Shown: piece after piece, positions 521 through 13,915 of the stretch
Layout: each line of letters opens with the position of its first letter
How positions within the stretch are numbered: position 1 is the stretch's first letter
Assembly: GCA_001628405.1 (NCBI GenBank)
Contig: LURN01000005.1
Location: 1 to 45,356 of the forward strand
Source: Candidatus Thioglobus sp. REDSEA-S12_B1
GTDB lineage: Bacteria; Pseudomonadota; Gammaproteobacteria; PS1; Pseudothioglobaceae
Direction: 5' to 3'
Length of the DNA: 45,356 bases
Position numbers and translations under genes: made by a program
Notes under the pieces: generated by a model
The model's input: the letters and a program-made list of their open reading frames with translations, nothing else
The model's database searches: none
What the model was told of the DNA's origin: nothing

Positions 521-1231
521 ATGGCAATTGCATTAGTAGGACAAAAAATCGGAATGACACGTTTGTTGACAGATGATGGATCAGCCTCATCAGTCAGCGT
601 TATAAAAATTGAGCCTAATCGTGTAGTGCAGACTAAATCTGTAGAGACAGATGGATACAATGCTGTTCAAGTTACGACTGGAAAGAAAGTGAACAAAAAA
701 GGTGAGGCGAAAATTGGACGCGTCAGTAGTTCACTAAAGGGTCACTATGCTAAAGCATCTCAAGAGATTGGACTTGGTTTATGGGAAATGAGAGTTAGCG
801 AAAGTGAAATGAATGCAATGCCAAGCCTTGATATTTCTTTTTTTGGCGAAGGGCATTTTGTTAATGTCACTGGTCAATCGAAAGGTAAAGGTTTTCAAGG
901 CGGTGTAAAGCGCCATAACTTTAGTATGCAAGATGCTACTCATGGTAACTCTATTTCACATCGTGCAATTGGATCAACTGGTCAGTGTCAAGAGCCTGGA
1001 AGAGTATTCAAAGGTAAGAAAATGCCTGGTCAAATGGGAAATGTCCAAGTAACTGAAGAGTGTCTCGAGATTTTAAGAGTAGATAATGATCGCAATTTAT
1101 TATTGGTAAAGGGCGCTATACCAGGGTCCAAAAACGGCTTTGTTAAAGTATTCCTATCCGATAAAAAAAATAATATTAATTCGAAGATTAGTAAAGAGCT
1201 TTCTGAGAAGCAAGCAGCAGACTTGGCTTGA
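521..1231 (+). CDS. rplC: 50S ribosomal protein L3
   Basis: The protein begins [16 protein letters not shown] and holds the L3 signature region ([37 protein letters not shown]). L3 is an early-assembly protein near the peptidyl transferase centre. The conserved part ends near residue 220. A hydrophilic extension then runs to TGA at 1229-1231, giving 236 residues against about 210 usual. Immediately at the stop, the +1 frame opens into an acidic EEAAPV repeat that runs to 1367, 21 bases before rplD. The reading frame may therefore be broken by an indel or completed by frameshifting; see the separate tail entry. Confidence 0.95.
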
Positions 1232-1306
1232 AGAAGCAGCTCCAGTTGAAGAAGCAGCTCCAGTTGAAGAAGCAGCTCCAGTTGAAGAAGCAGCTCCAGT
1301 TGAAGA
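1228..1306 (+). repeat. Four perfect 18-bp tandem repeats at the rplC 3' end
   Basis: The unit TTGAAGAAGCAGCTCCAG occurs at 1228-1245, 1246-1263, 1264-1281 and 1282-1299, followed by a partial copy to 1306. Because the unit is a multiple of three, copy-number change keeps the frame. The repeat encodes (EEAAPV)n in the frame +1 to L3, and its first copy contains the TGA that ends the L3 frame. Confidence 0.97.
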
Positions 1307-1367
1307 CGCCGAATCTAAGGCAGCTGATGAAGTAGATGAAACTAAAGATAAAGAACCTGAAGCATAA
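1230..1367 (+). other. Out-of-frame acidic tail, probable continuation of L3
   Basis: The frame +1 to rplC encodes 45 residues: four EEAAPV units and an acidic end containing ESKAADEVDETKDKEPEA, stopping at TAA 1365-1367. The frame has no ATG, GTG or TTG near the repeat; its nearest possible start is a TTG at 1140, deep inside L3, which would give an implausible protein. The tail fills what would otherwise be an unusually long 157-base gap before rplD. The likely readings are that L3 continues into it as a 281-residue protein through a +1 shift, or that one base is extra or two are missing in this sequence. Confidence 0.6.
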
Positions 1368-1388: not shown

Positions 1389-2003
1389 ATGAAAGTAAAA
1401 GTATTAAATTTGAAAACTAACAAATCTACTTCACAAGAAGTTTCTGATGATGTTTTTGGCCGTGACTACAATGAGTCACTAGTTCACCAAATTACAACTG
1501 CATACATGGCGGCTGGTAGAAGTGGAACCAAAGCACAAAAAAATCGTTCAGCAGTTAGTGGCGGTGGTAAGAAGCCTTGGAGGCAAAAGGGGACTGGTCG
1601 CGCCAGAGCTGGAACTTCAAGAGGACCTATTTGGAGAAGCGGTGGAGTGACATTTGCTGCACAGCCTCGTAATTACGCTCAGAAAGTTAACAAAAAAATG
1701 TACAAAGGTGCAATTAGCGTGATTCTTTCAGAATTACTTCGAACAGATCGTTTAAAGGTTGTATCAGATTTAGAAATTAAAGAACCTAAAACAAAAAATA
1801 TCACTTCACTCATGAAATCGCTAGATTTAAAAGATGTTCTTTTAATGACTGATGAGCTAGATGAGAATTTGTATTTATCTTCGCGTAATTTGTATCATGT
1901 TGGTGTTTGTGATACTCAAAGTATCGATCCTGTTAGTTTAATTGGCTATGAAAATGTAGTTCTAACAAAGGCTGCATTAAAGAAAGTTGAGGCAATGTTA
2001 TGA
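1389..2003 (+). CDS. rplD: 50S ribosomal protein L4
   Basis: The L4 signature is clear: the extended loop carries [20 protein letters not shown] and [16 protein letters not shown]. The length of 204 residues is normal. The ATG at 1389 is preferred to the in-frame GTG just before it, because L4 proteins start next to this MKVKV strand. L4 lines the exit tunnel and in E. coli represses its own operon. Its stop overlaps the rplW start by four bases, implying translational coupling. Confidence 0.97.
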
Positions 2004-8264: not shown

Positions 8265-8795
8265 ATGGCTGAAAATAACAGAAATAATTATAAAGAAGAA
8301 AGTGAATTCATTGAGAAGTTGGTCAATATTCGCCGTGTAGTAAAGGTTGTAAAAGGTGGTAGAATTTTTGGCTTTTCTGCTTTAGTAGTTGTCGGCGATG
8401 GAAATGGAAAAGTTGGCTATGGAACTGGTAAAGCTCGTGAAGTGCCTTTAGCCATTCAAAAAGCAATGGATAAAGCCAAAAGATCAATGAAGCCTGTTCC
8501 ATTAATTAATGGCACGCTTCACTATCCTGTTACCTCTAGAGTGGGTGCTGCAAAAGTTTACATGCAGCCAGCTTCTGAAGGAACTGGAGTAATTGCTGGT
8601 GGCCCAATGAGAAGTGTTTTGGAGGCTGTTGGAGTTCACAACATTTTGGCTAAGTGTAATGGAACTCGTAACCCCATTAGTGTTGTTAGGGCTACAGTTG
8701 ATGGCCTTACTAAAATGTCATCACCACAAATTGTTGCAGCAAAACGCGGCAAAACTGTTGAACAAATACTTGGAGAAGTCTGCAGCAGCTCCTAA
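8265..8795 (+). CDS. rpsE: 30S ribosomal protein S5
   Basis: The S5 core is complete: [36 protein letters not shown], and the C-terminal [19 protein letters not shown] through [14 protein letters not shown], which is where the E. coli protein also ends. In this frame five further residues (VCSSS) follow before TAA at 8793-8795. Those codons are the repeat tract read out of frame. The +1 frame continues as a long Ala/Lys-rich stretch into L30. S5 shapes decoding accuracy at the back of the 30S subunit. The exact C-terminus is uncertain. Confidence 0.95.
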
Positions 8796-9087
8796 GAAAG
8801 CAGCAGCTCCTAAGAAAGCAGCAGCTCCTAAGAAAGCAGCAGAAGCAAAAGTTGAGGCTACGAAGGCGCCTGAAACAAAAAAAGCGCCTGCAAAAAAGGC
8901 TGCTCCTAAAAAGAAAACAGTAAGTGTTACATTAGTCAAAAGTTTCTACGGTAGATTGCCTAAACATCGTGCTACAGTAACAGGCTTAGGTTTAAAAAGA
9001 ATCAACCATACTGTCGAACTTGAGGATACACCAGAAGTAAGAGGCATGATTAACAAAGTCTCTTACTTATTAAAAGTTGAGGGTTAA
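8770..9087 (+). CDS. rpmD: 50S ribosomal protein L30 with a long Ala/Lys N-terminal extension
   Basis: The last 59 or so residues are a clear L30: [53 protein letters not shown]. Upstream the same frame carries AAAPKK repeats and an Ala/Lys/Glu linker. No ATG, GTG or TTG occurs between the repeats and the L30 core. The only nearby start is TTG at 8770, which overlaps the rpsE end by 26 bases and lacks a recognisable ribosome binding site; it is used here provisionally and gives 105 residues. Alternatives are a +1 shift from rpsE, making an S5-linker-L30 fusion, or an indel in this sequence. L30 identity is secure; the start is not. Confidence 0.8.
8782..8841 (+). repeat. Three perfect 18-bp tandem repeats between rpsE and rpmD
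   Basis: The unit GCAGCAGCTCCTAAGAAA occurs at 8782-8799, 8800-8817 and 8818-8835, with six bases of a fourth copy. In the rpmD frame it encodes (AAAPKK)n. In the rpsE frame the first unit supplies the TAA stop. The unit length equals that of the rplC repeat although the sequence differs. Confidence 0.97.
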
Positions 9088-13438: not shown

Positions 13439-13915
13439 ATGAGACACAGAAAGTCAGGAAGACAACTTAATAGGAATGCATCACACAGAAAAGCTATGTT
13501 CAAGAATATGGCTAATTCTCTGATCTTGCACGAAACAATTAAAACTACTTTGCCAAAAGCAAAGGAGCTTAGACGTGTAATAGAGCCATTAATCACAAGA
13601 GCGAAGTCTGATAGTGTTGCCAACCGTCGTCATATCTTTTCAAAATTGAGAGATGATGCAATGGTTGCTAAATTGTTTACACAAGTTGGTCCTTTCTACA
13701 AAGATCGTCCTGGAGGCTACGTTCGCATCTTGAAGGCAGGATTCCGAACTGGTGACAAAGCGCCAATGGCTTTAGTTCAGTTAGTTGACTTTGAAGGTCA
13801 AGAAGAAGTTGTGATAGAAGCTCCAAAGAAAGAAGCTAAAGCTGCGGCACCAAAGAAAGAAGCTAAAGCTGCGGCACCAAAGAAAGAAGCTAAAGCTGCA
13901 AAAAAAGAATCTTAA
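13439..13915 (+). CDS. rplQ: 50S ribosomal protein L17 with a repeat-encoded basic tail
   Basis: Residues 1 to about 120 are a typical L17: [40 protein letters not shown] and [20 protein letters not shown]. Beyond the core, the protein extends in frame by about 30 residues of APKKEAKAA repeats, ending at 158 residues (E. coli has 127). Unlike the other two tails in this block, this one needs no frame change. Tails of this type are common on bacterial ribosomal proteins and are probably disordered rRNA-contacting extensions. Confidence 0.97.
13823..13900 (+). repeat. Nearly three 27-bp tandem repeats in the rplQ 3' end
   Basis: A unit beginning CCAAAGAAAGAAGCTAAAGC recurs at 13823-13849, 13850-13876 and 13877-13900 (last copy short by three bases). 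It encodes PKKEAKAAA units in frame with rplQ. The copies are identical at the DNA level, pointing to recent expansion. Confidence 0.96.

Follow-up and report, generated by a model that had tools for sequence, protein, structure and literature searches.

The window is the whole stretch of 45,356 nucleotides analysed here and corresponds to contig C45 of a draft genome (G000) of 77 contigs and 1.6 Mb. Its features are collected in Table 1 and comprise the ribosomal protein genes rplC (L3), rplD (L4), rpsE (S5), rpmD (L30) and rplQ (L17), three of which contain a perfect tandem array. The zero-frame product of rplC ends in KQAADLA followed by TGA 1229-1231 (open frame 521-1231), which overlaps the start of a run of four identical copies of the 18-bp unit GAAGAAGCAGCTCCAGTT at positions 1230-1301, precisely where the original prediction had placed the end of the L3 frame. 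Tandem Repeats Finder delimits the array at 1228-1306, with 4.4 copies and a 100% match, so that T1228 is already repeat sequence. Within 1200-1320 the contig reads GACTTGGCTTGAAGAAGC.

Table 1. Features of the rplC region and of the other repeat-bearing ribosomal protein genes in the window.
Feature	Position	Strand	Description
rplC (L3), zero frame	521..1228	+	236 aa; L3 core complete (to about residue 210) and first part of the clade-specific extension; profile match TIGR03625
TGA in frame with L3	1229..1231	+	created by the junction
Perfect 18-bp tandem array, 4.4 copies	1228..1306	+	codes for EEAAPV repeats (+1 frame)
Acidic L3 C-terminal tail, 45 aa and stop	1230..1367	+	shifted to +1; homologous to tails that relatives have in frame
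Junction	1227..1228	+	unique ...GACTTGGC abuts array TTGAAGAAGC...; 38 nt of G025 absent, giving the +1 shift
rplD (L4)	1389..2003	+	intact; ATG start at 1389
rpsE (S5)	8265..8795	+	own stop codon missing; runs on as CSSS to TAA 8793-8795
Perfect 18-bp array (AAAPKK units) of rpmD (L30)	8782..8842	+	junction 8781|8782, without 28 nt of G025
Perfect 27-bp array in the rplQ (L17) C-terminal tail	13823..13899	+	intact; the only strong array found undamaged

The +1 frame stays open through the array and encodes four EEAAPV units followed by EDAESKAADEVDETKDKEPEA, a tail of 45 residues (18 acidic and 3 basic) closed by TAA 1365-1367. The original prediction had described this frame as open to 1367, ending just before rplD and giving 281 residues when joined to L3, and this description holds in each point (236 and 45 residues add up to 281, and the rplD start lies at 1389). 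It was equally right that the tail has no start codon nearby: no plausible start was found in the +1 frame, the sole candidates being TTG 1140 and CTG 1203. An independent open reading frame for the tail was rejected for want of a usable start codon.

The L3 body matches the bacterial L3 model TIGR03625 (L3_bact) over residues 5-210 (E 3.7e-71), covering model positions 2-201 of 202 with 239.1 bits against a cut-off of 142.9. L3 open frames in Gammaproteobacteria outside the family are mostly about 214-240 aa long. Since the model match ends at residue 210 and most of those frames fall in that size range, a truncation at 236 aa would, judging from the sequence, leave the L3 core uncut.

Comparison of rplC in close relatives, proposed in the original prediction, bears on the nature of the tail. 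In every rplC of the same genus lying on a contig that crosses the region, the acidic tail is in the L3 frame and none is split. The in-frame lengths are 276 aa in G007, 282 in G025, 304 in G003 (the gene on the contig common to L059 and L151) and 289 in G006, and other relatives are in frame as well. These four are SUP05 or Pseudothioglobus-type Gammaproteobacteria which share with the window the operon, the L3 core (88-94% identity) and an acidic Ala/Glu/Pro tail ending in KDKEPEA or similar; they differ from it in having that tail in the L3 frame. Tails of relatives vary in length and in unit (EEAAPV, VETEV, EAVETPV). The part of the window's tail that follows the repeats matches G025 (...VDETKDKEPEA, then stop) and G003 (...ADETKDKEPEA, then stop) and, because it is homologous to in-frame tails, it represents a genuine L3 tail displaced from its frame and not a chance reading frame. 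The three nearest relatives have a bridging stretch in the tail (e.g. EAQASEAAAAAPV in G025) which the window lacks. In G004, G020 and G013 the contigs stop just before the L3 tail and resume just after it, so that this region evidently breaks assemblies.

Alignment with G025 gives the geometry of the lesion. The window joins GATTTGGC directly to TTGAAGAAGCAG where G025 has 38 further nt between them, and there are 0 mismatches over the 36 nt to the right of the junction. A single clean 38-nt deletion at the upstream edge of the array thus suffices, relative to G025, for both the junction and the frame shift. The tail falls into +1 because 38 equals 2 modulo 3, and the window reads GCT where relatives have GCA because the deletion brings in the T from the repeat unit. 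Against G003, deletions of 38 nt, or of 38 nt and whole units, fit almost as well. The break lies exactly at the repeat edge (array from 1228, junction 1227|1228), as it should for an artefact at a repeat. The original prediction had offered a one-base indel at the repeat among its readings; the indel or sequence error at the repeat is favoured, but the change is described better by a deletion of about 38 nt, together with any whole units, from the edge of the array than by a single base.

Two readings in which the tail is expressed from the sequence as it stands were weighed. A programmed +1 ribosomal frameshift at GCU-UGA would join L3 to the tail, and it is true that the frames meet smoothly (ADLA-EEAAPV) and that, as in prfB (RF2), a UGA ends the zero frame and the continuation lies in +1. 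However, the window differs from prfB in its shift codon, its spacer element and the conservation of its frame arrangement. The codon before UGA is GCU and not the slippery CUU, a GCU-reading tRNA would be expected to re-pair poorly with CUU, and GAGAAGCAAGCAGCAGACTTGGCT holds no AGGRGG-like Shine-Dalgarno element at the needed spacing, in line with the original prediction, which saw no prfB-like signal. The downstream RNA fold is no more stable than shuffled sequences (z +1.95, +0.40 and -0.29). No relative needs such a shift, the split-frame arrangement is not conserved wherever the tail can be read, and the lesions at rpmD and rpsP/rimM described below would be left unexplained. A programmed frameshift is therefore extremely improbable, and the proposal of a frameshift of a new kind is likewise unsupported, since all relatives are in frame and neither a slippery site, nor a Shine-Dalgarno stimulator, nor an unusual RNA fold was found. 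The prfB pattern was also tried as a positive control in the draft genome and discarded, its exact match (G000:C24) lying outside an RF2-like frame and being due to chance.

The other reading of this kind, transcriptional slippage on the run of eight A at about 1164-1171 or readthrough of the UGA, is just as improbable. From 1140 to 1367 the +1 frame stays open across the A run, yet slippage there would exchange a conserved stretch of 20 residues for 20 different ones, against the conservation in relatives, and readthrough in frame 0 would meet another TGA a few codons past the first.

Lesions of a like kind were identified at other arrays of the draft genome. The second one in the window lies at 8781|8782, at the rpsE/rpmD boundary (window 8765-8842), and had gone unremarked in the original prediction. 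Here 28 nt of the G025 sequence are missing, the stop codon of S5 and the ATG of L30 among them, and S5 adjoins the AAAPKK array directly; all relatives readable at this boundary keep TGATG or TAATG. The third is on contig C72 (L169; S16 start at 1480 of the locus), where rpsP (S16) and rimM form one continuous frame, joined where the rpsP array ends. In this case 64 nt of G003 are absent on the downstream side of the S16 array, with 0 mismatches on either side, and the S16-RimM open frame reaches 328 aa against at most 259 aa in relatives, which carry rpsP and rimM as separate genes. Two further arrays coincide with interruptions of the assembly: in a SCO1/SenC-like gene (L184, G000:C13:799-903) a perfect 9-bp (SHD) array gives way directly to 46 N (G000:C13:858-903), and the first bases of contig C32 already belong to a 27-bp array (L203, G000:C32:1-114) that codes for a His/Asp/Glu-rich stretch, possibly part of a metal-binding protein.

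The survey covered about 596 kb of the genome and the C72 locus, a strong array being one with a Tandem Repeats Finder score above 100. Six strong arrays were identified: three with edge deletions, one with an N gap, one at a contig end and one intact (L17), so that five of the six are affected. The other genes of the window, about 40, are intact, the proteins of G006, G025 and G003 matching them in one frame and essentially at full length. Among the relatives, the L30 array of G011 (L218) holds a run of N, and such arrays trouble other assemblies too.

A different origin for the same lesions would be real and recent deletions in the cell through repeat instability, leaving a truncated but functional 236-aa L3 without the acidic tail, an L30 without a start and an S16-RimM fusion. 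Loss of the tail should be tolerated, given the end of the core near residue 210 and the usual frame sizes outside the family; some L3 of Thioglobaceae end at 220-241 aa, and the tails differ widely in length and unit. This explanation would nevertheless require three independent edge deletions, all in ribosomal protein genes of a single genome, while the rest of the window shows none, and would leave L30 without a start codon. That further strong arrays run into a stretch of N or the end of a contig points to the assembly instead, and beyond the repeats the tail has retained the coding sequence seen in relatives. Real deletions are consequently unlikely, and so is the recent truncating mutation put forward in the original prediction, which stands as a reading but would need similar edge deletions to have arisen independently at three ribosomal protein arrays. 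It is likewise unlikely that the sequence is right and the lineage remodelled several ribosomal protein repeat tails at once (L3 tail lost, S16 and RimM fused, L30 without its usual start). If true, hypervariable repeat tails would be hot spots for the remodelling of ribosomal protein ends.

The L3 frame break very probably arose during assembly or amplification, as an artefact at a tandem repeat of variable copy number, with its cause outside the cell. An artefact is by far the best reading because the lesions co-occur at arrays, the relatives are intact and assembly gaps lie at arrays. An ordinary L3 whose acidic tail is in frame and varies in length is the most likely product in the cell, where rplC would continue without a break through the Glu/Ala-rich tail, as it does in relatives. 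While the draft was built, the unique stretch that separates the L3 body from the 18-bp array would have dropped out, about 38 nt relative to G025 and some number of whole units, and the flank would have been attached partway through a repeat unit, throwing the tail into +1 and giving rise to the TGA.

The lesions, N gaps and contig ends of this genome at perfect arrays, and the contig ends and N gaps that relatives show at the corresponding arrays of the L3 tail and the L30 head, resemble the misassembly, collapse or gaps known at tandem repeats of draft genomes. They differ in that the junctions are clean and share an overlap of 0-1 nt, and for this reason a plain de Bruijn overlap error does not fit. 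Gap closing, scaffolding or an amplification chimera may have been the technical route. Single-cell genomes of two strains are reported to have 4-5 times more misassemblies than isolate assemblies (PMC4287102), a figure that bears on G000 only if it is a single-cell genome. The intact L17 array, also a perfect repeat, runs counter to the artefact reading.

In this genus low-complexity tandem-repeat extensions are found at the C-terminus of L3 and S16 (both acidic) and of L17 (Lys/Ala/Glu), and at the N-terminus of L30 (basic). Species differ in the length of these extensions and, for L3, S16 and L30, in the unit, which changes between subclades. A limited literature search returned no publication describing ribosomal frameshifts in SUP05 or ribosomal tails of this type; the viral collection contained no contigs of the same species, and phage records matched the conserved L3 only. 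Variable-length repeat tails on L3, S16, L30 and L17 look like a real trait of the genus. The analysis strikes out a false recoding candidate in a ribosomal gene that is essential and accounts for its origin. In this genus draft assemblies break at tandem arrays in ribosomal protein genes, so an apparent frameshift, fusion or missing start at such an array should be trusted only when reads support it.
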